From NCBI GenBank assembly GCA_947623915.1, contig CANQIB010000001.1, positions 1-64,000 on the forward strand: a stretch of DNA of 64,000 nt, in the 5' to 3' direction. The notes under the pieces are model-generated. The model was not told the origin of the DNA, made no database searches, and saw only the letters and a list, made by a program, of their open reading frames with translations. The stretch is from an uncultured Ruminiclostridium sp. GTDB lineage: Bacteria; Bacillota; Clostridia; Oscillospirales; Ruminococcaceae. A program made the position numbers and the translations under genes. Below are positions 2,307 to 64,000 of this stretch, piece by piece (within the stretch, counting starts at the first letter, position 1; each line of letters begins with the position of its first letter).

Positions 2307-2333
2307 AACGGGTGAAAACTCACCCGTTTTTTT
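2306..2333 (+). terminator. Rho-independent terminator after AraC gene/repeat
   Basis: A 10-bp stem (AAACGGGTGA / TCACCCGTTT) with loop AAAC is followed by seven T. It directly abuts the tail of repeat copy B and overlaps the stop codon of the convergent minus-strand gene. Confidence 0.8.
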
Positions 2334-4536
2334 AGGTTATGGCCGCCATAATGTCCGCAAGTCCCGTGTCCTCCGAGCCTTTGAACAGCACCGCGTCGTT
2401 CGGTCTGATGTTCAGCCCTAAAAATTCCATCATTGCCGCCTCGCTTTTCAGTACGATGACGGTTTTTCTTTTAAGGTCCGCGGTCTGAGCGATATTTGCG
2501 GCGGTATCCCCGTAGCAGACGGTAATATCGACGGAGCTTTTGCTTATCACGCTGCCCACGCGGCGGAAAAGGTTTTCTTCATACTCGCCTCCGCCCGCCA
2601 TTTCCGAAAATACCGCGATACGCCTGCCATCCGGAGGTAAGAACGTTCCGCACAGTTCTTTCAGCGCGGCTGCTATGCTTTCGCTGCCGGTATTTTCAAA
2701 ATCCGATATTACGGTAACATTGTTGCCGTTCTTTACGGTATTAAGGCCGGACGCTTTGCGGTATTTTTCTATCGAGGCGGTTATCTGCTTTGTCGGTATA
2801 CCCATTATCTCGCCCAGCGCAAATGTTTCAAGAGCCTGATATATCATGAGTCGGTCATCGGAGTACATTTCTATATGATGGACATTTGCTCCGTTGATTA
2901 TATCGAAGCATATTTTGTCCTCCTCTGTTTTTATGCTCTCCGCATAATAATCCGCCATGTGATTGTCTATCCCGACGGTGATTATATCCTGCTGTATCGA
3001 AAAAATACTTGCAAGATTTTTGTCGTCGATGTTGATTATCACCGCTCCCGCTTCGGACATTCCGCTGCATACTCCCAGCTTTTCTTCAAGCTGCTCCTGC
3101 TTTGACAGCCCGCGCGGATTTACCGACGCGGCGGCGCTGGTCAGTATCGCAACGTCGGTGCCGGATATCATAGATATGCGTTCGGCGTTTTTCTCCTTTT
3201 CGACGGATATCCCGATGACAGCGGCTGCGGTATCCTTAGTGGAGGACAGCAGCGCTTTCAGCATAGCGTTGTAATTATCCTCAAGTGATACGGATTTTAC
3301 TATCTTCATTCTTTCGCTCAGCATGCTGCTTATCATACCCATGGGGTATACCTGTCGGGGACTGTCCAGCACCGCTATCGACCACATGCCGAGCTTGGTC
3401 TTGATATAGGACGCAAGCGTTTCCTTGGCGGTCTCGATGTTTTCCACCACCAGATCGGATATACCGCGGACAGGCTTATCGGTGATAACTACCGCCGCGC
3501 CGTTGTTGTATGCGTCTTTTGCGCTCCTGTCGTCCTCTGCAAAATATGCACAGTCCTTTTTCAGCTTTTGCCTGCCTATCGCTATAGAATTTATAGCGGC
3601 GTCGGGGGAGTTGCGCTGCGATACGTTCAACACCTCGCACAGTTCCGATACCGTAAACAATGCGTCGTCGGGGACAGCGTCCGCGTCGGCTTTCTTTTTA
3701 CCGCTTAACTGCTCGAAATTTTCAAACGTAAAATCCAAAAGCGTTATCGCGTCATAGAAAACATACTTCATCTGCTTTGTATGCTCCGCGCCCAGCACGA
3801 CCGCCATTATCTCCTCTCCGTGCTTTCCCTTAGGCGGAAGAGCGGAGCAGGCAAGACACGCCTTTGATTTTACGGTGTAGCCGCTTTTTATCCCGATGGC
3901 GGTATCGTATTTATACCTTTTGTAAGAACTGTTCACCAGCAAATTTGAGTTGGTAAGAGTACGCTCAGGGCTTTTATCCGTCGCGGCTATGGTGTATTTT
4001 TCGGTACGCGCCACGGTGCGGAAAATGCGGTTGGTCATACAGTATCTGCATATTATGGCAATATCATATGCGTTCGAGAACTGTTCCGAGGTGAAACGGC
4101 CGTTTGCGTCGGTAAGCACGGTGTTTTCCGCGCCCATGAGCTGCGCTTTTGCCTGCATAAGCTGCGCAAACTCGTCCTTGCCTCCGCAGATAAATTCACC
4201 CAACGCGAACATGGAATCGTTGGCGGAAGCCAGCATCATGGAATATACCAGATCCAGCACGGATATATGCTCTCCCTCCACCAGACCTATCGAGGCGGAG
4301 CTTTTCCACCTGCTCATTTCCTGTACGACGCTTTTGGAAATGACCACCGTATCGGACGGACTGCATTTTTCAAGCGCGATTATAGACGCTAATATCTTGG
4401 TGATAAAGGCGGGATACATCTTCTTTTTGGCGTTCTTTTCCAAAAGTATCTTGCCTTCGTTTTGTGTTACTACTATCGCCGCCGTAGCGTTTATCTCCGG
4501 CATATCGGTTTTTTGTACTGCGTTTATCTCGGACAT
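2332..4536 (-). CDS. Degenerate DD-carboxypeptidase-MurF-like fusion, predicted cytoplasmic
   Basis: This 734-residue protein joins two cell-wall enzyme folds that have both lost key residues. Residues ~15-280 match PBP5-type D-Ala-D-Ala carboxypeptidases: SxN (SAN, 104-106) and K[T/S]G (KSG, 217-219) are present. The SxxK nucleophile, however, reads PAFITK, with Phe44 (TTT at 4405-4407) where the family has Ser. Residues ~292-734 align in order with MurF. They match in domain 1, in the region equivalent to the YNANP segment (here FENTGSES), in AVFSEMAGGG and in VLFKGSEDTGL. The ATP loop G[SN]GKT[TS] is replaced by DSPRQVY (391-397). There is no signal peptide, so it should be cytoplasmic, unlike true carboxypeptidases. 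The ATG at 4536 follows AGGAAAGG; the ATG at 4578 lies upstream of the -10 box. Function is unknown; a sensor or scaffold that binds wall precursors is possible. Confidence 0.8.
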   Translation of the reverse strand: MSEINAVQKTDMPEINATAAIVVTQNEGKILLEKNAKKKMYPAFITKILASIIALEKCSPSDTVVISKSVVQEMSRWKSSASIGLVEGEHISVLDLVYSMMLASANDSMFALGEFICGGKDEFAQLMQAKAQLMGAENTVLTDANGRFTSEQFSNAYDIAIICRYCMTNRIFRTVARTEKYTIAATDKSPERTLTNSNLLVNSSYKRYKYDTAIGIKSGYTVKSKACLACSALPPKGKHGEEIMAVVLGAEHTKQMKYVFYDAITLLDFTFENFEQLSGKKKADADAVPDDALFTVSELCEVLNVSQRNSPDAAINSIAIGRQKLKKDCAYFAEDDRSAKDAYNNGAAVVITDKPVRGISDLVVENIETAKETLASYIKTKLGMWSIAVLDSPRQVYPMGMISSMLSERMKIVKSVSLEDNYNAMLKALLSSTKDTAAAVIGISVEKEKNAERISMISGTDVAILTSAAASVNPRGLSKQEQLEEKLGVCSGMSEAGAVIINIDDKNLASIFSIQQDIITVGIDNHMADYYAESIKTEEDKICFDIINGANVHHIEMYSDDRLMIYQALETFALGEIMGIPTKQITASIEKYRKASGLNTVKNGNNVTVISDFENTGSESIAAALKELCGTFLPPDGRRIAVFSEMAGGGEYEENLFRRVGSVISKSSVDITVCYGDTAANIAQTADLKRKTVIVLKSEAAMMEFLGLNIRPNDAVLFKGSEDTGLADIMAAIT

Positions 4537-4589: not shown

Positions 4590-4885
4590 CATTAAATTAT
4601 CATAAACTGTAACAGGGGAGAGGACTATGAATTGATGTTATGATGTTATTTTACCATAAAACTGCCGTAATGTCAATTAAAATCGCTGTTTGAGCCGCTT
4701 TTACAGTATATTCGCAAGTTGCTCGAGCGTTCCCGCGGTCGGGAAAGAGTCGGCTGTCGTTTTTTGAAAATACGGCTTATAAAAAGCGACTTTTTAGGAA
4801 AAGTTTATTGTGCAATGTGACGAAATTTTAAAATAAAATCGTGCATTTTTTCTACACATTCAAAAAAATTTTTTCGGGTTATCTA
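4590..4885. other. Intergenic region without recognised gene
   Basis: This ~300-bp AT-rich stretch lies between two divergent promoters. I see no ORF with a ribosome site, no long hairpin and no repeat. It includes a short GC-rich patch near 4726-4760. Confidence 0.5.
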
Positions 4886-4914
4886 TTGACACCATTTTTT
4901 GCGGACTGTATAAT
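4886..4914 (+). promoter_or_regulatory. Perfect consensus sigma-A promoter for the Asp-Thr surface protein
   Basis: TTGACA (4886-4891), a 17-bp spacer and TATAAT (4909-4914) match the consensus at all 12 positions. The predicted leader is about 110 nt. This suggests high expression of the surface protein. Confidence 0.85.
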
Positions 4915-5032
4915 AAAATTACAAAACAGTATAGGAACGCCCGTGTAACGGTTTACAACGGCTTTCCGAGCTGTTTAACGAATGATTATCCGACGTTTCA
5001 AAACGTTTAATATTTTTGAGGAGGATGTTTTC

Positions 5033-7426
5033 ATGACAGACAATGTAAAGAATGAACAGCCTAAACTGACCGCAAGGAAAAAACTGCTCAGAAAAATTAT
5101 AGCGTTCATATTCGCTATAAACATGCTGTTTGCACGCCTGTTTTCTCTTCCGACCGCCGCTCCCGCGCAGAATGCAAATATGGATCTGTTCGGGCAGGGT
5201 GCATCACAGACATACTACACGGAAAACGTATATCAGACCGAGCTTCCCTCGGTTCTTGCCACATCAGATGCGAGCGTATTTGACCAGGAGAGCATTGATT
5301 ACGATACGCTGCTCGGCATGAATGACGACGAAAAGTCCTACGAGTCGGTAAACGGACTGCTTGGCTATGCAGCCGGCTTCAGCATATTTGTTGAAGAGGA
5401 TGCCGTTATTGAAGGCTCCGACTGCGGCGGACGTGCCGCTGTCGGCGGTGATCTTACCGTTACCGCTTCGGACGGTTGGTTCACGTTCAACAATGAGGAC
5501 CTCGGCGGAGAGGGCGCGGCTGACGTTATCGTCGGCGGTAAAGCTGATTTCAAAGTCAGCGACAGCGGACGCGTAATATGGGCTAACGAAGTATCCGACA
5601 GATTTTCCAACCAGCAAAGCGGTGCTACTGTTATCGGTGGCGTAAACGAGCAGACCGATTTCAATTTCAGCAACGCTTTCGACAAACTGAGAGCCGCTTC
5701 CCAAAAGCTCGCCGCAATGGAGACCACCGGCGTATATTCCAACAACTGGGGCAACTTTGAGTTTACCGGTTACTCAGAGGGCGTGAACGTATTCACCGTT
5801 ACCGCCGATGAGATAAATTCCACCAACGGCGCACCTTTCGGACTGTCTTTCAACAACATACCCGAGGGTGCAACCATACTGCTCAACATCGTCGGCGGCG
5901 ACGCTGACACCGTACTTAATCTGCGTATAAACTACGTTACCATCAACGGTACGCAGGTAAGCCAGTACAACGATCCCGAGCATAGATACCGCAACTTCCT
6001 TATCAACGTTGCCGATGCCGGAACGGTTGATCTTTACGGATTTACCGGTTCGCTGCTCGCTCCCAACTCTCATGTAAACGGTGAACAGCGTCACCTTGAA
6101 GGTCAGCTCATCGCTAAGTCCTACAAGGGCGGCATGGAGTTTGGTTGGAATACTTTCGATATCCCCATGAGCGACGACGATTTCGATACTGATACTGATA
6201 CTGATACTGATACGGACACCGATACCGATACGGATACTGACACGGATACCGACACCGATACCGATACTGACACTGACACTGACACTGACACAGATACCGA
6301 TACCGATACTGATACTGACACGGATACCGATACTGACACCGATACCGATACCGACACCGATACCGATACCGATACCGATACTGATACCGATACCGATACA
6401 GACACGGATACCGATACTGATACCGACACTGACACGGATACTGATACAGACACCGATACTGATACTGATACGGATACTGATACGGACACCGATACCGATA
6501 CCGATACCGATACTGACACTGACACGGATACTGACACCGATACCGATACCGATACGGATACCGACACCGATACAGACACGGATACCGATACCGATACTGA
6601 CACGGATACCGATACCGATACCGATACTGACACGGATACTGATACCGACACCGATACCGATACCGATACAGACACGGATACCGACACCGACACAGATACC
6701 GATACCGACACCGATACAGATACCGACACCGATACCGATACAGATACCGACACCGATACCGATACTGACACGGATACCGATACAGATACCGATACCGACA
6801 CTGACACCGATACAGACACGGATACCGATACCGATACCGATACTGATACGGATACCGATACCGATACGGATACTGACACCGATACAGATACAGACACCGA
6901 CACTGACACCGATACAGATACAGATACCGATACCGACACGGATACCGATACCGATACCGATACGGACACCGATACAGATACAGATACCGATACGGACACG
7001 GATACCGATACCGATACAGATACCGATACTGATACAGACACCGATACCGATACTGATACAGACACCGATACCGATACTGACACGGATACAGATACTGATA
7101 CGGACACGGATACCGATACTGACACTGATACTGATACTGATACCGACACAGATACGGATACTGATACTGATGCTGATACGGACACAGATACTGACACGGA
7201 TACTGATACTGACACAGATAGTGATTTTGATTTGCCGGTTCTGGACTTCGACCAGTCCACACCTCAGGGCAATCTTCCGGTTCTTGACTTCGGTCAGCCC
7301 ACGCCTCAGGCTAACAACCCGCACACCGGCGTTGGAATTGACGGAGCAGCCGGCTTAGGTGCAATGGCAGCGGCAGCACTGGCAGCAGCCTCGGTAATTG
7401 CAGGAAAGCGCAGAAGAAATAAGTAA
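5033..7426 (+). CDS. Sortase-anchored choice-of-anchor A surface protein with Asp-Thr repeat stalk
   Basis: This 797-residue cell-wall protein has four parts. First comes a long basic n-region and hydrophobic signal segment (to about residue 47). A choice-of-anchor A type domain follows (~80-380), including GGRAAVGGDLTV and HLEGQLIAKSY...GWNTFDIP. An uninterrupted Asp-Thr dipeptide stalk spans residues 385-728, with a single Asp-Ala. The tail repeats LPVLDF twice and ends in NPHTG (762-766), a hydrophobic Ala-rich helix and KRRRNK, a sortase sorting signal of NPxTG type. The ATG at 5033 has GAGGAGG at the right distance; the ATG at 4982 has no ribosome site. Choice-of-anchor A domains occur in exported adhesin-like proteins; an adhesive role is inference. 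The very acidic stalk could bind calcium. No sortase gene is in the window. Confidence 0.85.
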   Translation: MTDNVKNEQPKLTARKKLLRKIIAFIFAINMLFARLFSLPTAAPAQNANMDLFGQGASQTYYTENVYQTELPSVLATSDASVFDQESIDYDTLLGMNDDEKSYESVNGLLGYAAGFSIFVEEDAVIEGSDCGGRAAVGGDLTVTASDGWFTFNNEDLGGEGAADVIVGGKADFKVSDSGRVIWANEVSDRFSNQQSGATVIGGVNEQTDFNFSNAFDKLRAASQKLAAMETTGVYSNNWGNFEFTGYSEGVNVFTVTADEINSTNGAPFGLSFNNIPEGATILLNIVGGDADTVLNLRINYVTINGTQVSQYNDPEHRYRNFLINVADAGTVDLYGFTGSLLAPNSHVNGEQRHLEGQLIAKSYKGGMEFGWNTFDIPMSDDDFDTDTDTDTDTDTDTDTDTDTDTDTDTDTDTDTDTDTDTDTDTDTDTDTDTDTDTDTDTDTDTDTDTDTDTDTDTDTDTDTDTDTDTDTDTDTDTDTDTDTDTDTDTDTDTDTDTDTDTDTDTDTDTDTDTDTDTDTDTDTDTDTDTDTDTDTDTDTDTDTDTDTDTDTDTDTDTDTDTDTDTDTDTDTDTDTDTDTDTDTDTDTDTDTDTDTDTDTDTDTDTDTDTDTDTDTDTDTDTDTDTDTDTDTDTDTDTDTDTDTDTDTDTDTDTDTDTDTDTDTDTDTDTDTDTDTDTDTDTDTDTDTDTDTDTDTDTDTDTDTDTDTDTDTDADTDTDTDTDTDTDTDSDFDLPVLDFDQSTPQGNLPVLDFGQPTPQANNPHTGVGIDGAAGLGAMAAAALAAASVIAGKRRRNK
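6185..7216 (+). repeat. 1,032-bp GAY-ACN hexanucleotide array encoding (Asp-Thr)n
   Basis: About 172 tandem six-base units encode Asp-Thr. Both codons vary freely (GAT/GAC and ACT/ACC/ACG/ACA), so the array repeats at protein level but is shuffled at DNA level. One unit near 7169 reads GATGCT (Asp-Ala). The antisense frame reads Ser-Val throughout. Confidence 0.95.
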
Positions 7427-39462: not shown

Positions 39463-39812
39463 GGGGCCGTAAAGGTTTCGACGGGGGCGATGAAGCCGGT
39501 CAAGCACGCAGAGTCCGCCTGAGCTCTTCAAAACGGGCAATTTAAAATTAAACGCAGACAACAGATCTGAGTTAGCAGCTGCCTAACGGCACTGCCGTCC
39601 GCACGGGAAACGCTGCGATCCCGTATCGGGCGTCGATCAGCAGCCAACATCTTCGGTGAGAGCCTTGCAGCCGTCGATGTATCAAAGGGCTACCGAAACG
39701 GTTATCCTGTAAGCCGGAGCGCCGCGAGGGAATTTTAAAAGACTTAATAAGCGTGTAGAAAAGCCGTCGGACTTGCTTTCGGACAGGGGTTCAATTCCCC
39801 TCGGCTCCACCA
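39463..39812 (+). ncRNA. ssrA: tmRNA (ssrA)
   Basis: tmRNA rescues stalled ribosomes and tags the nascent chain for proteolysis. The tRNA-like domain is closed by GGGGCCG (39463) and CGGCTCC-A-CCA (ending 39812). The 5' part has the typical GTAAAGGTTTCGACGGGG; the T-arm is GGGGTTCAATTCCCC. The tag frame ends NADNRSELAAA followed by TAA (about 39583). The 3' end is also the attachment site of the adjoining island. Confidence 0.97.
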
Positions 39813-41607
39813 ATGCTCCCACATCCGTATATACGGGTGTGGGAGGTTTTTGTAGCGGGTGGGTAGGCTGATTACTTCGGACAGAATTCTGAATATCCTT
39901 TATGCGGTTATTAAATTTTTCTATGATCCGGTGCGAATTGTCGGGTTTTGTGTTATGGTAAAATGTGAATTTTTTTATATTTTCATATAACCCGATTTCG
40001 TCATCCGTGTAAGGGCATTTAGTCATAGCTGTTTCTCTGCTTATTGCTACTGTATGTATATATAGATTATTTTTTAGCTCCTCGTCCTCGTATAAAAGCG
40101 TGGCAGGCACCCTAAAGGTGACTGCCACGCTTTCATTTGTAACTTCGATACATTCTATATACTGTGATAGTATATATTTTAGATTTGCAAGGTTCTGAGG
40201 ATCGCTGAGGTTGTTCCTTAGCTTATTAAGTGCCTTTTCGACTTCAGCCTCCGTAACATTTCTAATGCTTAGCTCTTTCTTATACTGCTCTATAATCTCC
40301 GATGTGTCTTTTATGTTCTGCTCACATTCCTGATACTTAGCGGAAAGCGTGCCGGTAATACCGGTCTGAGAAATAGCATTTACAAGATTGTCCCTTATTT
40401 GGGTAAGCTCGGCAAGGTGCAAGGCTGCATTATTCAGCTTGATATTGTCTGAGCTATTGTTAAGCTGCTCATTTATAGAAGCGGTTATTATAGAAATGCT
40501 GTTATCGTTGAAAAACTCTTTGAAGAACAGTCCTATAACCCAATCCTCTATATACTTGCATTGTATCTCCTTACAACCGCAGTTATGCTTATTTTCTCTG
40601 CTATTACAGCGGTAAGTATAGTATACCAAAGGACGGTTCCTATACCTCTTTACATTGCCATGCAGCCTTCCTCCGCAGCACCCACAGCGCAGAAGTCCCG
40701 AAAGGAGATATTGATGTCTGATACTGTTTTCCTTCAAATGCCTCATGGCTTTTCTAATCGAGTTCGCTTTGTCCCATAATTGTTCCGAAACTATTGCCGG
40801 ACAGCCGTTTGGTATCCTTATTATTTCGCTGTCCGACTTAAACTCGTGATTGTTTCGTACACCGCAATTAGCGGAGGAACGCTTATTAAAGCAGAATTCG
40901 CCTTTGTATTTCTCGTTTATTATTATCTCATAAAGGCTGTTTTTACCAAATTCTTTTCCCTTTTTTGTCTTATAGCCTTGCGCATTTAAGTGCCTGATAA
41001 TAGTATCATACCCTTTGCCTTCCGCCATCATTTGAAATATTATCCGTACTGCCTGAGCCTCATTTGGGTTTATAACCATCTTTTTGTCTACGACGTCATA
41101 TCCTAACGGCGGTTTGCCTCCTGTCCATAAGCACTTTAAGGCGTTTTCTTTCAGCCCTTTCATTACCTCCCTTCCGAGATTTACCGAATAGAAGTCGCTA
41201 ATACCGAAAATCAAGCTCTCCAGCAATATACTCTCAGGTGTGTCATCAAGCGGTTCAAGAACGCTTATCAGCCTTACCCCTCTTCTTTTAAGCTCGTTTT
41301 TGTAAAGTATCGCGTCGTTCATATTCCTTGCGAAGCGGTCGAATTTGTGTACTATAACCGCCTCAAAATCTCCATTGGCTGAATCGCTTATCATACGCAA
41401 AAATTCTTCTCGCCTGTCATTTGTGCCTGTTTTTGCCCGGTCACAATACTCCTCGACCACCTCGATAGAATGCTTGCCGCAGTATTCGTGCATGGCACGA
41501 AGCTGCGCGTCAATAGACATATCCCGTTGGTTTTCGCTTGAATAGCGTGCATATAGCGCCGCTTTTCTTATGTCGTTTAAATTAAGTAGTTTTTTTCTTC
41601 TTTTCAT
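39682..41607 (-). CDS. Large serine recombinase (integrase of the ssrA island)
   Basis: This site-specific recombinase is 641 residues in the integrated form. It has a resolvase domain with catalytic Ser in ALYARYSSENQ (about residue 24), the DRFARN helix, a recombinase domain (GKPPLGYDVVDKK) and a zinc ribbon (GLLRCGCCGGRL ... YRCNSRENKHNCGC). A coiled-coil stretch follows. The frame crosses attL and continues about 43 codons through antisense ssrA, ending ITVSVAL. The island-encoded part ends at about GALVEP. In the excised circle the frame would close after NDKE. It starts with GGAAAGGAC upstream. Confidence 0.93.
   Translation of the reverse strand: MKRRKKLLNLNDIRKAALYARYSSENQRDMSIDAQLRAMHEYCGKHSIEVVEEYCDRAKTGTNDRREEFLRMISDSANGDFEAVIVHKFDRFARNMNDAILYKNELKRRGVRLISVLEPLDDTPESILLESLIFGISDFYSVNLGREVMKGLKENALKCLWTGGKPPLGYDVVDKKMVINPNEAQAVRIIFQMMAEGKGYDTIIRHLNAQGYKTKKGKEFGKNSLYEIIINEKYKGEFCFNKRSSANCGVRNNHEFKSDSEIIRIPNGCPAIVSEQLWDKANSIRKAMRHLKENSIRHQYLLSGLLRCGCCGGRLHGNVKRYRNRPLVYYTYRCNSRENKHNCGCKEIQCKYIEDWVIGLFFKEFFNDNSISIITASINEQLNNSSDNIKLNNAALHLAELTQIRDNLVNAISQTGITGTLSAKYQECEQNIKDTSEIIEQYKKELSIRNVTEAEVEKALNKLRNNLSDPQNLANLKYILSQYIECIEVTNESVAVTFRVPATLLYEDEELKNNLYIHTVAISRETAMTKCPYTDDEIGLYENIKKFTFYHNTKPDNSHRIIEKFNNRIKDIQNSVRSNQPTHPLQKPPTPVYTDVGALVEPRGIEPLSESKSDGFSTRLLSLLKFPRGAPAYRITVSVAL
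39801..39812 (+). repeat. attL: ssrA 3'-end direct repeat
   Basis: TCGGCTCCACCA, the last 12 bases of ssrA, is repeated at 49497-49508. Confidence 0.85.
39816..39851 (+). terminator. Terminator downstream of ssrA, inside the island edge
   Basis: The stem CTCCCACAT-CCGT / ACGG-GTGTGGGAG is followed by GTTTTT. It terminates tmRNA transcription, and the recombinase frame reads through it on the other strand. Confidence 0.8.
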
Positions 41608-41703
41608 TGTAAAAGTCCTTTCCGTTATATTTTTGTAATAATATATATTTATTTTTTGCGTTGCTTCGGATTACCGGGAAGTAACCCGAAGCAACGCAGA
41701 AGA

Positions 41704-41868
41704 CTAATGTTGGATAAATAAATCGATAAGAACACTTACTACAGGCTTGAAAAATTGCTTGTCCTCTATTAAGGTTTCTGAAACTTTAGCATTATAGTCG
41801 TTAGGGCTTTTGCTTTGAGAAAGCAATTTTTCTCGACTTGATGTAAGCGTTATTTTTTGGATGTACAT
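41704..41868 (-). CDS. Small island protein (54 aa)
   Basis: This short frame begins MYIQKITLTSSREKLLSQS and ends VLIDLFIQH. It has AAGGAGAA at 8 bases from its ATG. It lies between the helicase-like gene and the recombinase on the same strand. No known domain; helical, mixed charge. It could be a recombinase-associated factor, as small ORFs often sit here. Confidence 0.6.
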   Translation of the reverse strand: MYIQKITLTSSREKLLSQSKSPNDYNAKVSETLIEDKQFFKPVVSVLIDLFIQH

Positions 41869-41883
41869 AAGTTGTTCTCCTTA

Positions 41884-43590
41884 TTATGTCGGCGAATTAG
41901 GTAACATAAAACAGTAGTATGCGACTTTTTGATTAGTACGCCTAACTTTGATCCGATAGGTGAGTCTGCCGTCACTATCTGTTTTTAATATTTTTTCATT
42001 TTTCAGTTTATTTAGTATACATCTGTAATTATTTATATTATTCTTATTCATCAAATCTTCAAAATAATTTTTAATAATACATATTTTTGTGTAATCCTTC
42101 GTATTTTGCACCATGCCTATGCAATTACTTATCTTGTCATTTTCATCATTTGCGCCTCCGTATTTATACCCATTAGCTTTTACATCATATAATAAGACTT
42201 GTATTAAATTCTCCTCCGGGTTTTCGCGAAGCGCGTTACGGTTAATTAAATTACATGCAAACTTCTTTATTTCGTCGCAATTAAGTCTGAAAAAACCTTG
42301 AAAAATTTCGTTCATATACATTGCCGTCAGGATAACGACCGCGAGCTTTGAAGCCATGCGAACCGTTAAGCGGCTTTCTTTTGACTGCGACGCTAAGGTT
42401 TCTTTTATCATTTTATACTTTTTTTCGATTTCACTATACTGCTTCTTTACCAGTTGCTCTAAAAAAATACTACCTGCCATACCGTAATTATTAAGAACGG
42501 CGTTTTTTATCTTTTCACTGTTATCAGCACTCAAAGTATATTTTTCGTTAAGCTCGAACACCCTTGCCTCAAGTCCCTCAGGGGAATGCTCCGTTAAGAT
42601 GTCAAACTCCGCTGTAGAAAGTATGATATTAGAATACTTCTTTACTTCCTTTAACGTTGAGTCGCCATTAAGCTTTCTTCGAGATGACCCTGAGCAAAAT
42701 GTATACATTAGCTTGGTAAAATCTTTACTGTCCGCCATAGCGACTTCGTCTATGCAGGCTGTTAATCCATTGGCGTTGGCAAGAGTTTCTTCCAGCGATA
42801 GCCTTGTCGCGTTGTATGAAAGCATAGTGCCCTCGTTAATTACCGGCGAACCCCATACGCTCGACGCAAGCATAGCCGCTGTAGTCTTTCCTGTTGACGA
42901 CGCACCCGATAGGCTGAAAAGTATCGAGCCTAATTGGTAAGCATCGTCCAATAACGCAAGCAACGGGCTTGCAAATCCTAATGCCAGCACCCATTCCATG
43001 GGTGTATTGCCTATCACCTCGTTTTTTACCATTCCTACCCAGTTTTTGAATTCACCTTTACTTTTAATGTTAAAAGAGCCTTCATAACAACAATCATCTA
43101 ACACTTTCTCAGCAGTATAAACCTTATTGCCTCTAAAGCATAATTGACCGTTTATGTTATTCCAGCCAAGCTTGCTGTATACCTTCTGATTGGCGGCATG
43201 TGCCTCTGAAAACATCAGGTAATTCGATAGCAATTCAGCGTTTTTTTCCTCAAATCGCACACCAAATGTTAATAATAAACTTATTTTTTGCTTTGATAAC
43301 ACAGCACTGCTTACTGTTTCACTTACATATTCTGTTCCATTGAATATTCTTAGCTTGAAGGTCACTTCGTTACTATCCATATTTATTTTCCTTTTTTCAA
43401 CTGTGACATAAGTTGAAATTAACAACAGATAGTATCTGCTATTGTTTTTGACAACCTTAAACACGTTTTTGTCATAGTTTGAGAAGTAAGGATATGATGA
43501 GTGAGCTTTTAGCTTTTTAACGTAATCCTCGGTGATTTTTTTGCGTCCGGACAAATCGCAGTCCATTCTTAAGTCGAAAAGTTCGTACAT
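41884..43590 (-). CDS. DUF927 helicase-like ATPase of the island
   Basis: This 568-residue protein has a DUF927 P-loop domain: Walker A GASSTGKTTAAMLA, acidic LTACIDEVAMAD, and sensor NIILSTAEFDILTE. The N-terminal ~200 residues form the usual DUF927 front domain (VYSKLGWNNINGQLCF). The C-terminal ~170 residues look like a winged-helix tail. DUF927 proteins occur on mobile elements and act like superfamily III helicases in replication. It has its own regulated promoter and a ~340-nt leader, and lies 15 bp from the 54-aa ORF. Confidence 0.88.
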   Translation of the reverse strand: MYELFDLRMDCDLSGRKKITEDYVKKLKAHSSYPYFSNYDKNVFKVVKNNSRYYLLLISTYVTVEKRKINMDSNEVTFKLRIFNGTEYVSETVSSAVLSKQKISLLLTFGVRFEEKNAELLSNYLMFSEAHAANQKVYSKLGWNNINGQLCFRGNKVYTAEKVLDDCCYEGSFNIKSKGEFKNWVGMVKNEVIGNTPMEWVLALGFASPLLALLDDAYQLGSILFSLSGASSTGKTTAAMLASSVWGSPVINEGTMLSYNATRLSLEETLANANGLTACIDEVAMADSKDFTKLMYTFCSGSSRRKLNGDSTLKEVKKYSNIILSTAEFDILTEHSPEGLEARVFELNEKYTLSADNSEKIKNAVLNNYGMAGSIFLEQLVKKQYSEIEKKYKMIKETLASQSKESRLTVRMASKLAVVILTAMYMNEIFQGFFRLNCDEIKKFACNLINRNALRENPEENLIQVLLYDVKANGYKYGGANDENDKISNCIGMVQNTKDYTKICIIKNYFEDLMNKNNINNYRCILNKLKNEKILKTDSDGRLTYRIKVRRTNQKVAYYCFMLPNSPT

Positions 43591-57177: not shown

Positions 57178-58380
57178 TCACGGATTTTTTAGTTTTCCGC
57201 CCTTTGCTCCGCCCAGCTTGCTTCCGGTAAAGTTTTCGAGTATGTTGCTGTCAAAGCTGAAGGTCAGCGCTTTTTTCTCGCGTTCACGCTTCAGTGCTAG
57301 GGAAATTATCCTGTCCAGAAGTTGGGGGTATTTTACTCCCAACGGCTCCCAAAGATAAAACGCCAACGAGCCCGGTATCGTGTTTATTTCGGTAAGGTAT
57401 ATATTTCCGTTATCGTTGTCAAGCATGAAATCTATCCTTGCTATCCCGTTGCAGTTCAGCGCTTTGAACGCCTTTACCGCAAGACTGCGCACCAGCTCGC
57501 GCTGTTCGGGCGATATATCGGCGGGTATCTTGCGTTTCAGACTCGCCATGCCGCTTTGCTTGCCGCCCTTAGCGTCGGATATGTACTTGTCGTCAAAGCT
57601 GAGTATATCTCCTCCCGACAGCGGCTGCTCACATTCCGACGCCTGCGCGTCGGAAATATCGCCCACCACCGAGCAGTTTATCTCGGTAAGATTTGTTATG
57701 GCGTGTTCCGCAAGCACCCTATCGGCATAACCGAACGCATAGTTCAGCGCCTCGTCCAGCTCGTCGGCGTTGTGCGCTATCTGTATGCCTACGCTTGAGC
57801 CGAGATTTATCGGCTTTATTATGACAGGATAGCCTATCTTTTCCTCTATCTCTTTTTTTACCTCGCCGCCTTGCGCGACATATCGGGAGGAATGTACCGT
57901 AACGCAGTCCAGCACGGGTATCCTGCTGTCACGGAATACGCATTTCATCATGTATTTATCCATTCCCACCGCCGACGCGCCTACGTCGCAAAAGGTGTAG
58001 GGAACACCCACCGTTTGCAGGTAGCCCTGCAAAGCTCCATCCTCGACGTTCGTCCCGTGGACTATCGGCATGGCTATGTCGATATAATCATATACGTTGT
58101 TCCCGAATTTCTTTGGCGGGTAATAGCAAAGCTGCGTTTTTCCCGCGTCGCCGACAAGTATCACACGATGGCTGTTTTTCAGCAGTTCGGGTATATTGCG
58201 GTAGCTCTCTATCTTTCCGACCGCATCTCCGACGTACATTTCGGTCTTTTTAGTGATGTAAATAGGGATAACGTCATATTTATCCCTGTCCAACGCGCTG
58301 CACGCCTGAAGCGCCGAGATGACCGAAACTTCGTGTTCGACGCTCATTCCGCCGAACAACACTCCGACCTTTATCTTCAT
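57178..58380 (-). CDS. ddl: D-alanine-D-alanine ligase
   Basis: Ddl makes the D-Ala-D-Ala dipeptide of peptidoglycan. It is an ATP-grasp enzyme of 400 residues with VLFGGMSVEHEVSVISA at the start. Also seen are PIVHGTNVEDGALQGYLQ, YPVIIKPINLGSSVGI, DFMLDNDNGNIYLTEINTIPGSLAFYLW and the metal Glu/Asn. The mobile-loop segment GMASLKRKIPADIS has no feature I would tie to a vancomycin-type D-Lac ligase. The ATG at 58380 is 8 bases after AGGAG; the ATG at 58386 is too close. It is coupled to murF, whose product uses its dipeptide. Confidence 0.95.
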   Translation of the reverse strand: MKIKVGVLFGGMSVEHEVSVISALQACSALDRDKYDVIPIYITKKTEMYVGDAVGKIESYRNIPELLKNSHRVILVGDAGKTQLCYYPPKKFGNNVYDYIDIAMPIVHGTNVEDGALQGYLQTVGVPYTFCDVGASAVGMDKYMMKCVFRDSRIPVLDCVTVHSSRYVAQGGEVKKEIEEKIGYPVIIKPINLGSSVGIQIAHNADELDEALNYAFGYADRVLAEHAITNLTEINCSVVGDISDAQASECEQPLSGGDILSFDDKYISDAKGGKQSGMASLKRKIPADISPEQRELVRSLAVKAFKALNCNGIARIDFMLDNDNGNIYLTEINTIPGSLAFYLWEPLGVKYPQLLDRIISLALKREREKKALTFSFDSNILENFTGSKLGGAKGGKLKNP

Positions 58381-58396
58381 ATCCATATCTCCTTTA

Positions 58397-59998
58397 TCAG
58401 TAATTATCCGGCAGGTCGTTCTCCAGCAGGATAATTTTCTTTTTACCGCCCGTTTTCAGCGCGTCGACTTGCTTTAGCGCTTCGTCCAGCGTCGACGCCG
58501 CGTAGAACTTCTCTTCGGGATAGCCGGCGGTCCTTACTCCGTCGCGGATTGGAACGGCTTGCTTTTCGCCGACCGCGATTATATAGTCGCAGACGGCCGC
58601 CGCCTGAGTACCGAACGTTTTGTTAAGCTCGTATTCCTTTTCCCCAAGCTCTATCATGCCAGGCGTGACCAGTATCTTGTACCCGTCGAACACCGCAAGC
58701 GTGTCCAACGCCGCTTTCGCGCCGCTGGGGTTGGAATTGAACGCGTCATCTATTACCGTATCCGCTCCGCGCTTTATTATCTGTAAACGGTGCGGCACGC
58801 TTTCAAGCCTGCGAACAGGCATGACCAAAGCCTCCAGCTCCACGCCGAGCGTGTTCGCCGCCGCAATCGCGCCGACTATGTTCTGCACGTTATGAGCACC
58901 GATAAGGCCTGTGGAAAACTCCCTGCTTTCGTTTTTGTGGTGCAGGGTGAACCGCGTACCGTTTTCGTTTACCGTTATGTTGTCGGCATAATAATCCTCG
59001 TCGCCGCCGTTCAGCCCGTAGGTCACTTTCTTGCCGGAATGACCGTGGCCGCGGATATATTCGTTGTCATAGTTCAAAAACGCCGTGCCGGTCGCGGGCA
59101 GGCTGTCCGCAAGCTCAAACTTGGTTTTTACGATATTTTCCAACGAGCCGAACGACTCAAGATGCTGCGGACCTATCGAGGTTATCAGTCCGTATTTCGG
59201 CTTTACTATATCGCATATCTCTTTTATTTCCCCGACGTTTTTAGCGCCCATTTCACACAGGAATATCTCGTGTGTGGCTCTTAACGAGCCGCGCACGGTC
59301 TTTACCACACCCATGGTGGTATTGTAGCTTTCCGGCGTCATAAGCACATTGTATTTTGCGCTCAGCAGCTTTTCCAGAAAGAACTTGGTGCTGGTCTTGC
59401 CGTAGCTGCCGGTAAGCCCTACAACGGTAAGAAAGGGAAATCCGTTTATTATCTCTTTTGCCTCGTTGATGTAATGCTCGTTTATGCCGTGTTCTATCGG
59501 CTTATTTATAACGTTCGCGATAATGACCGCCACCGAGGACAAAAGCTGCATACCGCAGGCGATAAGCAGCGAGGTCATGCTTATCCCGCAGAATATCAGC
59601 GGCAGGATAAGCGCCGCCGCGTAAATTATACCGGCGGTCACAGTCATGCGGATAACGCGCGGGGTGTAGACCAGCTTTTTCTTTACCTTTTTATGTCCGT
59701 AAAAAAGGCTGTTGATATTCACCGCCATGAATATCGCGGCCGCCGCGAGCAAAGCGACGACGCTCGCGCCGTCGGGCGCTCTGCCGCCGGTAAAGGCTAT
59801 GATAACGGCTGTCGCCGAGATAAGTGTGAAAATATGCCTGCATATAACGTGCGGCAGATTTTCCTTTATCCATTTGAATTGCTCTCCCGCATGGTAGGAG
59901 TTTAGCTGGAACATATGCATATAGTGTCGGAAATTCAACACGCAGCTTGCAAGCAGCGCGGCATAAAAGCACGCGACCGCGATATAGGTGAATATCAT
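58397..59998 (-). CDS. murF: Membrane-anchored MurF-type Mur ligase
   Basis: This 533-residue ligase adds D-Ala-D-Ala to UDP-MurNAc-tripeptide. Residues ~1-190 hold about five hydrophobic helices in place of the normal MurF N-terminal substrate domain. The catalytic domain follows: VVGLTGSYGKTSTKFFLEKLL (ATP loop, ~199-211), CEMGAKNVGEI, GAHNVQNIVGAIAAA, and DDAFNSNPSGAKAALDTL equivalent to the YNANP region. So the enzyme would be attached to the membrane beside MraY/MurG. The neighbour ddl supports the MurF assignment. The start has AAAGGGG. Confidence 0.9.
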   Translation of the reverse strand: MIFTYIAVACFYAALLASCVLNFRHYMHMFQLNSYHAGEQFKWIKENLPHVICRHIFTLISATAVIIAFTGGRAPDGASVVALLAAAAIFMAVNINSLFYGHKKVKKKLVYTPRVIRMTVTAGIIYAAALILPLIFCGISMTSLLIACGMQLLSSVAVIIANVINKPIEHGINEHYINEAKEIINGFPFLTVVGLTGSYGKTSTKFFLEKLLSAKYNVLMTPESYNTTMGVVKTVRGSLRATHEIFLCEMGAKNVGEIKEICDIVKPKYGLITSIGPQHLESFGSLENIVKTKFELADSLPATGTAFLNYDNEYIRGHGHSGKKVTYGLNGGDEDYYADNITVNENGTRFTLHHKNESREFSTGLIGAHNVQNIVGAIAAANTLGVELEALVMPVRRLESVPHRLQIIKRGADTVIDDAFNSNPSGAKAALDTLAVFDGYKILVTPGMIELGEKEYELNKTFGTQAAAVCDYIIAVGEKQAVPIRDGVRTAGYPEEKFYAASTLDEALKQVDALKTGGKKKIILLENDLPDNY

Positions 59999-62659: not shown

Positions 62660-64000
62660 TTAAAAATTCCAGTATATGAACGGATTGTTCGTCGCGTTTA
62701 CCAGCAGCACGCTGCTAAGCATGAAAATGAATATGCAGGCTGCCGTTCGGGCGTATATATACGCGGAGGACTGCGCAAGCTCCTTGTATTTTTTCTTTAC
62801 CCACGGGATTATCGGCAGGCAGCAGATTATGCAGGCGGCTATCAGCCAACAGTTCGACGCCATGCTCATAAGCGATATGCGGTCGGTCAGCGGATTGCCG
62901 TTCGCTCCTACAAGGTTGCCCAAAAACGTACCGAGCTGCCCTATATCCTCAAAGTAGAAGATGCCGAAACCTATTGTGATTACCAGCAGGCTGTATATAT
63001 GCGAAACAGCGGCGGGCAGTTTTTTGAGCCGCTTGTTGCCTATAAGCCGTTCTATCAGGATAAAGAAACCGAAATACAGTCCCCAGATGATGTAATTCCA
63101 GCTAGCTCCGTGCCAAAAGCCCGTGCAGAACCATACGAGGAACAGGTTAAGATACTGTCTGCGCTTGCCGAAGATGGTGACGTACAGCAGATAATCCCTG
63201 AAAAAGCTGCCCAGCGAGATATGCCATCTTTGCCAAAATTCCGTTATATTCTTGCTGATAAACGGATAGCGGAAGTTTTCGTCAAATTTAAAGCCGAACA
63301 GTCTGCCCAGACCTATCGCGATGTCCGAATATCCCGAAAAATCAAAGTATACCTGCATTGCGTATACTATCACGCCGTACCACGTTCCCGCTACCGACAG
63401 GCTGCCCAGACTGCCCGCCGAAAAAAGCGCCTCGACTATCGTATGGAGGTTGTTGGCAAGTATGACCTTTTTGCCCAGACCTATCGAGATACGCGCTATT
63501 CCCTCGGTAATATCGGCGGGGTCGGTCCTGCGGTGATCTATCTGACCCTCTATCGTGCTGTAGCGGACGATAGGTCCCGCTATAAGCTGCGGGAACAGCG
63601 AAATATACATCAGCAGCTTGAACCAGCTTTTCTGGACGTGTATCTTTCCCCAGTAGCAGTCGAGGATATACGAGATTATCTGGAAAGTGAAAAAGCTGAT
63701 GCCTATCGGCATTATATCGTCCGGCGGCACCGGCAGGTCAAGCCCGCTGACGGCGTTTATGTTTTCGATGAAAAATCCCGTGTACTTAAATCCGACCAGC
63801 ACGCCTATGTCGAACACCAGCGTAAGTCCCGTAAGCACAAAGCCCGCTTTGCTTTCCCGAAATTTATCTATATACAGTCCGGCAAGGAAGTTGACGGTCA
63901 CGCTGAAGATAAGCAGAAATACATATACCGGCTCTCCGAACGCGTAAAATATCATGGAAAAAGCTACCAGTACGATATTTCTGTAAACGGTGTTTTTAGA
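62660..64000 (-). CDS. MBOAT family O-acyltransferase, 5' end beyond window
   Basis: At least 446 residues are visible; the frame stays open to the window edge (15 codons upstream of the ATG at 63955), matching the region before the FYSWGEP-like segment of the paralogue at 14416. The enzyme has FFTFQIISYILDCYWG, VYFDFSGYSDIAIGLGRLFGF, FWQRWHISLGSFFRDYLLYV and GFWHGASWNYIIWG with the active-site His. Together with the DHHW gene it should O-acylate a surface polymer. Confidence 0.93.
   Translation of the reverse strand, partial: SKNTVYRNIVLVAFSMIFYAFGEPVYVFLLIFSVTVNFLAGLYIDKFRESKAGFVLTGLTLVFDIGVLVGFKYTGFFIENINAVSGLDLPVPPDDIMPIGISFFTFQIISYILDCYWGKIHVQKSWFKLLMYISLFPQLIAGPIVRYSTIEGQIDHRRTDPADITEGIARISIGLGKKVILANNLHTIVEALFSAGSLGSLSVAGTWYGVIVYAMQVYFDFSGYSDIAIGLGRLFGFKFDENFRYPFISKNITEFWQRWHISLGSFFRDYLLYVTIFGKRRQYLNLFLVWFCTGFWHGASWNYIIWGLYFGFFILIERLIGNKRLKKLPAAVSHIYSLLVITIGFGIFYFEDIGQLGTFLGNLVGANGNPLTDRISLMSMASNCWLIAACIICCLPIIPWVKKKYKELAQSSAYIYARTAACIFIFMLSSVLLVNATNNPFIYWNF

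Follow-up and report, generated by a model that had tools for sequence, protein, structure and literature searches.

We analyzed a window of 64,000 nucleotides from an uncultured Ruminiclostridium sp. (assembly GCA_947623915.1, contig CANQIB010000001.1, positions 1–64,000), focusing on a minus-strand gene in which a peptidase S11 (PBP5-type) domain is fused to a MurF-like half. PBP5 enzymes act outside the membrane and MurF acts inside, and both handle the D-Ala-D-Ala stem. The gene and its features are as follows.

2332..4536, minus strand: fusion gene, pseudo-S11 (PBP5-type) plus pseudo-MurF, 734 codons plus stop
3784..4515, minus strand: Peptidase_S11 domain, residues 8–251 (Pfam; predicted structure)
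4405..4407, minus strand: codon of Phe44, which replaces the nucleophile Ser of SxxK (PAFITK); Phe in 10/10 orthologues
4396..4398, minus strand: Lys47, the retained Lys of SxxK (10/10 orthologues)
4219..4227, minus strand: S104-A105-N106, retained SxN motif (10/10 orthologues)
3880..3888, minus strand: K217-S218-G219, retained KTG-type motif (10/10 orthologues)
2335..3669, minus strand: MurF-like half, residues 290–734; the best match of the whole-protein model in the PDB is MurF 2am1
3346..3366, minus strand: DSPRQVY, residues 391–397, at the place of the P-loop TGSxGKT
4648..4676, minus strand: promoter-like site, TTGACA-17-TAAAAT, 11/12 letters

The reading frame runs unbroken from an ATG at 4536 to 2335 and is followed by a stop codon at 2332–2334. 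Full-length orthologues were found in 10 of the 71 genomes of the genus (source genome included), with identities of 55–100%, and the ten aligned proteins do not vary at Phe44, Lys47, SAN, KSG, D391 or P398. A preliminary description of this DNA had named orthologues carrying Ser at residue 44 and a GKT loop, or broken by stops and frameshifts, as grounds for rejecting its reading; Phe44 is present in 10/10, GKT in 0/10 and an internal stop in 0/10. We then computed the ratio of nonsynonymous to synonymous substitution rates (dN/dS, NG86) along both halves, as had also been suggested. The values for the S11 and MurF halves, respectively, were 0.049 and 0.036 in the closest pair (L006/L007), 0.038 and 0.028 in a second pair that is saturated at silent sites, and 0.05–0.06 and 0.10–0.15 in three pairs with the window, all pairs except L006/L007 being near or past silent-site saturation. 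A ratio of about 0.04 in the closest pair is not that of a decaying gene. On this comparison of sequences, the fusion is almost certainly a conserved double pseudo-enzyme maintained by strong purifying selection. The intact frame, the Phe44 found in ten of ten assemblies and the low dN/dS rule out a decaying gene or a sequencing error, which we consider extremely improbable; only the missing catalytic residues speak for it.

Pfam models matched the fusion protein at residues 8–251 (Peptidase_S11, E = 1.4e-38), 401–547 (Mur_ligase_M, E = 4.1e-6) and 600–721 (Mur_ligase_C, E = 6.8e-13), all three above their curated cut-offs. The preliminary description knew of no named family with this architecture, and a check of the domain databases agrees, with no model covering both halves among the listed Pfam and NCBIfam models. 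The intact 734-codon frame and the good promoter that it reported were likewise confirmed, and, in line with its account, no signal peptide is visible. Across the ten genomes, the best promoter sites on the fusion strand match 9–11 of 12 letters at varying positions. Export signals were judged by the hydropathy of the first 40 residues (maximum over 15 residues), which was 0.62–0.86 in all ten orthologues versus 1.87–2.72 in four S11 paralogues of the source genome. One orthologue (L014) contains an internal 19-residue stretch with a hydropathy of 1.88, and the remaining nine reach 1.18–1.48. The fusion protein thus has no visible export signal and is read as cytosolic.

The position of Phe44 is occupied by Ser in all of the 21 aligned S11 paralogue loci (four from the source genome), a subset of all S11 matches found in the genus. 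In a first whole-protein model the S11 half came out poorly, and the addition of paralogues to the alignment gave a good model of residues 1–289 (predicted local distance difference test (pLDDT) score, 92; predicted template modeling score, 0.90), the input alignment of which included canonical S11 rows. This model matched the PBP5-type structures 3mfd (3.2e-20; root-mean-square deviation (rmsd), 2.7) and 1skf, with template modeling (TM) scores of the query of 0.75 and 0.78, respectively. The fusion protein has the same fold as the S11 D,D-carboxypeptidases (PBP5/DacA, DacB) and keeps their SxN and K[ST]G motifs and the Lys of SxxK, but differs from them in having Phe for Ser, no visible signal peptide and an attached MurF-like half. 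Apart from the nucleophile, the peptide pocket looks preserved. These results bear out the original claim of Phe44 in place of Ser with SxN and KSG kept. It had further been suggested that the protein may bind muropeptide or precursor as a sensor or scaffold; a conserved pocket without its nucleophile would fit the idea of binding, whereas muropeptide as the ligand and the sensor and scaffold roles are conjecture.

The C-terminal half shares with MurF (UDP-MurNAc-tripeptide D-Ala-D-Ala ligase) its domain content and a fold match, but the P-loop GxxGKT is absent from all ten orthologues. Among 33 other MurF-type rows, 38 columns are conserved at a level of 90% or more; we compared these columns with nine family rows (L007, near-identical to L006, was excluded), and found that 20 were changed in the majority of the nine, some conservatively, and that 18 were kept. 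The P-loop has lost its Thr, its glycines and its last Thr; also lost are the Glu of EMG, the His and Glu of HxE, and an Arg, whereas the residues kept include K486 and D504 (both in 9/9 rows), D612 and G676. In MurF, the Glu of EMG binds Mg, and K486 and D504 correspond to the carbamylated Lys and a conserved Asp. In the whole-protein model, the mean pLDDT was 63.7 overall and mostly 70–90 within the MurF half, and the match to MurF 2am1 spanned 463 columns (9.4e-29) with an rmsd of 10.8 and a TM score, relative to the MurF target, of 0.59; how the MurF domains are arranged is therefore unsure. The NCBIfam murF model gave 115.5 bits, below its cut-off of 288.6, which is a weak membership test because only 2 of the 71 genomes have any match above it (68 have a match at an E value of 1e-30, some of these being other Mur ligases or fusions). 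Taken together, the ATP/Mg site does not look preserved, much of it being gone. The preliminary description was thus right about a C-terminal half of MurF pattern with DSPRQVY for the ATP loop, and the fold prediction that it asked for confirmed the S11 fold and gave 2am1 for the other half.

We next determined how widely the architecture occurs. Full-length matches were found in 4 of 396 family, 6 of 394 order and 1 of 391 class genomes (E limits of 1e-30, 1e-70 and 1e-70, respectively; samples drawn evenly, overlapping and including genus members), and every one belonged to the genus. There was no full-length relative outside the genus in these sampled family, order and class genomes; the initial scan considered no more than two candidates per genome among the matches listed, and a form that has diverged strongly, or one with its domains in reverse order, could have been missed. 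The full-length gene is present in four named records, all of them metagenome-assembled genomes (three labelled uncultured Ruminiclostridium sp. and one Eubacterium sp.) and all within the ten genomes. A phage origin was considered and rejected: tblastn in phages gave 67 records, none covering 80% of the query and the five listed matching one half only, and a scan of viral contigs gave no relative. Among the literature matches listed (open access; titles and starts of abstracts), there was no description of such a fusion or pseudo-enzyme. The fusion fails a defining feature of both the S11 and the MurF families and was therefore assigned to neither. Neither of these families accommodates its architecture and gene arrangement.

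In all ten genomes, the next gene upstream of the fusion gene, in divergent orientation, encodes a member of one adhesin family. In the window, this gene and its promoter are as follows.

4982..7426, plus strand: adhesin gene (start at 4982, more likely 5033) with leader, adhesive domain, Asp-Thr (DT) stalk and NPXTG-like end
4886..4914, plus strand: perfect sigma-70 promoter of the adhesin gene, TTGACA-17-TATAAT; site present in 10/10 genomes

The adhesive domain in the window is of the choice-of-anchor A/pAdhesive_15 type (E = 4.8e-41 in NCBIfam and 2.4e-39 in Pfam), the stalk contains 173 Asp-Thr-type pairs, (DT)173, and the C-terminus scored 20.3 bits against the NCBIfam Rumino_NPXTG anchor model, just under the cut-off of 23.5. 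The length of the DT stalk varies among relatives, and the adhesin frame of one genome (G001) has 2023 residues. The gap between the two genes is 338–446 bp, counted from the starts of the open reading frames (ORFs), and in G051 it also holds a 60-codon ORF of no known meaning. The other neighbors of the fusion gene are mostly common to a few genomes at most; only G051 (L056) has an S11 gene of the secreted type immediately downstream of the fusion. Leader-bearing homologues of the N-terminal 379 residues of the adhesin (E ≤ 1e-64) were found in exactly the 10 of 71 genomes that carry the fusion, and 20 further genomes match the adhesin only from residue 74 onward, with E values of 1.4e-27 or weaker. 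The adhesin promoter matches 12 of 12 letters in all ten genomes and in none of 2000 shuffled sequences. Moreover, the 26-residue leader of the window is 65–77% identical to those of five more distant relatives, compared with 42–51% for the adhesive domain behind it, and a leader more conserved than its domain would fit a specific cytosolic reader.

The window also contains a separate MurF gene and an adjoining Ddl gene.

58397..59998, minus strand: MurF, 533 residues; N-terminal part hydrophobic as judged by eye, GSYGKTS intact
57178..58386, minus strand: Ddl (D-Ala-D-Ala ligase), adjoining the 533-residue MurF

Judged from its sequence, the 533-residue protein is probably the working MurF of the cell. 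In 64 of the 71 genomes, a match of about 203–240 bits lies in a frame sized like this MurF, or shorter at contig edges, and the 12 of these 64 MurF proteins that were placed in a tree form one clade. Matches of this type are thus common in the genus, although they score under the curated murF cut-off, and the cell probably does not depend on the fusion for its MurF. Elsewhere in the window, positions 39682–43590 (minus strand) carry two genes reminiscent of SCCmec-type cassettes, one for a large serine recombinase (CcrB-like) and one for a helicase (Cch1-like), both below curated cut-offs, and positions 62660–63955 (minus strand) encode a DltB-like protein, also under its curated cut-off.

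The two domain types occur in the reverse order in four genomes of the genus (G024, G026, G034 and G003). Like the window fusion, these proteins show no visible signal, and the closest non-self hits to the profile of their S11 domains in the genus are window-type fusions, but they retain the P-loop, Glu and HxE of MurF. In G024, G026 and G034, a MurF with an intact P-loop (GSIGKTTVKD) is followed by a degraded S11 (ASLIS, GAADA, KEG), in which Ser is kept and the SxxK Lys, SxN and the KTG Thr are lost. The G003 protein consists of MurF, a degraded S11 and a hexapeptide domain (963 residues), and a solo degraded S11 lies two genes further on the same strand; both G003 proteins show ASLIT, SGT and KEG. 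Throughout the reverse type, the Ser stays and the Asn of SxN is gone. Pfam confirmed S11 in the G026 reverse fusion (2.3e-22) and in the two G003 proteins (6.2e-14 and 5.9e-15). These reverse-type S11 domains are presumably dead, given the motifs that they have lost. A profile of the five domains, run on the 71 genomes at E ≤ 1e-25, recovered all five known domains (a positive control), together with 6 of the 10 window-type fusions and no canonical S11; at 1e-40 it had no match in 396 family genomes, a sample that, as far as listed, does not hold the known carriers. In a tree of S11 domains, 15 pseudo-domains split from 23 canonical rows with weak support (89/59) and a long-branch warning, and in a tree of MurF the two fusion orders are not sisters, the deep forks being weak. 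A common origin is therefore plausible for the S11 part of the two orders.

We also examined gain and loss across the genus using alanyl-tRNA synthetase (AlaRS). The nearest group (≥76% identity) comprises 15 genomes, namely the 10 carriers, three with the reverse fusion (G024, G026, G034) and two with neither (G050, G053); G024 and G054 were placed from partial matches, and in 5 of the 71 genomes AlaRS gave no match at the limit. A tree was built of 20 genomes, namely 13 of the nearest 15 (all but G024 and G054) and 7 others, with 9 of the 10 carriers among them; on it, the carrier label needs four changes, at least three of them on starred branches. G021 carries the fusion–adhesin pair, which its close relatives G024 and G026 lack. 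These two share the flanking block, which stops at most about 110 bases from the site at which the fusion gene ends in G021, and other genes lie beyond it (one side compared). The flanking gene of G021 had no match in G034.

The constant adhesin neighbor, together with the selection on dead enzymes, suggests a new non-catalytic job. We infer a mechanism in which the fusion protein works in the cytosol, without catalysis, as a partner dedicated to the fibrillar adhesin of the divergent gene. The ligand of the S11 pocket would be a peptide of the D-Ala-D-Ala type, whether the free dipeptide, UDP-MurNAc-pentapeptide or lipid II, and would be left uncleaved. The MurF half would serve as a protein-binding scaffold, and both halves together would bind the pre-adhesin via its conserved leader or the DT stalk. 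Sortase attaches its substrates onto cell-wall precursor; binding by the fusion protein might thereby tie export or wall anchoring of the adhesin to the supply of that precursor. A functional link between fusion and adhesin is rather probable. Binding of a ligand is possible, with the balance slightly against it, an action at adhesin export or anchoring is doubtful, and the full mechanism is proposed tentatively, the balance being somewhat against it.

Two known systems offer partial parallels. In the accessory Sec export of serine-rich-repeat adhesins, Asp1–3 are located inside the cell, Asp2 and Asp3 are able to bind GspB, one such adhesin, and export proceeds without the catalytic residues of Asp2 (PMC5578698). 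As a works-like analogy only, these proteins would resemble the fusion as intracellular partners in the export of a repeat-stalk adhesin for which catalysis is dispensable (Asp2). The adhesin gene adjoins the partner gene in that system, as it does in ten of ten genomes here. PAP11/AtMurE of the plastid RNA polymerase is described as a Mur-ligase family protein in a complex outside wall synthesis (PMC4080259). It appears among the PDB matches of the whole model (8r6s_Q), but differs in being of MurE type and plastid, with no S11 part.

Several observations weigh against this partnership. The P-loop Lys column holds Lys in 6 of the 9 family rows (the window row is not among the six). The leader stretch is short and was chosen after inspection, and in two nearer relatives leader and domain are 84.6 versus 83.0% (G036) and 80.8 versus 92.3% (G064) identical. 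The adhesin of G051 reads as two ORFs, the adhesin ORFs of G054, G021 and G032 end inside the repeats without an anchor, and the window adhesin has no match in any of the four reverse-order genomes, although in G034 a DT/NPNTG protein end lies two genes from the reverse fusion. A sign test for co-occurrence of fusion and adhesin on three independent pairs gave P = 0.25 and could not reach 0.05; adjacent genes can be gained or lost in one event, and co-occurrence is therefore not independent proof. The stronger point for linkage is that the adjacency persists at 55–61% identity of the fusion proteins while the surroundings change.

The fusion protein might instead be a cytosolic precursor sensor or regulator without specificity for the adhesin, the S11 half reading D-Ala-D-Ala or UDP-MurNAc-pentapeptide and the MurF half docking on a Mur enzyme so as to tune the synthesis of precursor, with the position of the adhesin gene accidental. 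The invariance of K47, SxN and KSG despite loss of the nucleophile and the presence of Ddl and an intact MurF in the genome are in line with this, but such a regulator would be dispensable, being absent from 61 of the 71 genomes, and the adhesin gene adjoins the fusion in all ten others; we regard this explanation as unlikely. The kept residues (K47, S104, N106 and K217 of S11; K486, D504 and D612 of MurF) would also suit a protein that is still enzymatically active but whose chemistry has changed, such as a lyase or a ligase working without ATP. Given that the nucleophile, the P-loop, the Mg-binding Glu and the HxE His are all lost, this is very improbable.

The reverse-order proteins bring in two broader possibilities. 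One starts from a cytosolic pathway assembling peptides or polymers, in which MurF-like ligases with degraded S11 modules would make a surface peptide or glycopeptide. The fusion would be an offshoot of it, a subunit without catalysis that places the substrate for another ligase, possibly so as to modify the adhesin stalk. The MurF motifs retained by the reverse fusions speak for it, as do the locus of the G003 reverse fusion (L147, G003:C71) and a similar locus in G063 (L148, G063:C18), which look like surface-polymer clusters in gene content. Both hold GT2-like genes, a TupA-type ATP-grasp (Pfam in G003) and CapA+MurF with LRR (split in two frames in G063); hexapeptide domains are present in the G003 locus, and the G063 locus has a ligase resembling Ddl and a VanY that lacks a visible signal. 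Against it, the conserved neighbors of the window-type fusion include no gene for a ligase or a glycosyltransferase, and in the MurF tree, whose deep forks are weak, the halves from the two orders do not group as sisters; we regard an assembly role as improbable. The other is that dead D,D-peptidase modules joined to Mur ligases in both orders form a cytosolic D-Ala-D-Ala-handling system coupling precursor to surface adhesins or polymers; one branch would combine a dead ligase with a kept peptidase pocket, and the other an intact ligase with a degraded pocket. As a general account of both orders, such a system is rather unlikely.

In this lineage, selection maintains inside the cell a fusion of two inactivated wall-enzyme folds that ordinarily operate on opposite faces of the membrane. 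The reverse-order cousins provide a natural experiment on the task of each half. If the pocket still binds, the protein would be a natural cytosolic D-Ala-D-Ala receptor, and if the link to the adhesin is functional, it would represent a new way of tying the display of a surface protein to the status of the wall precursor.

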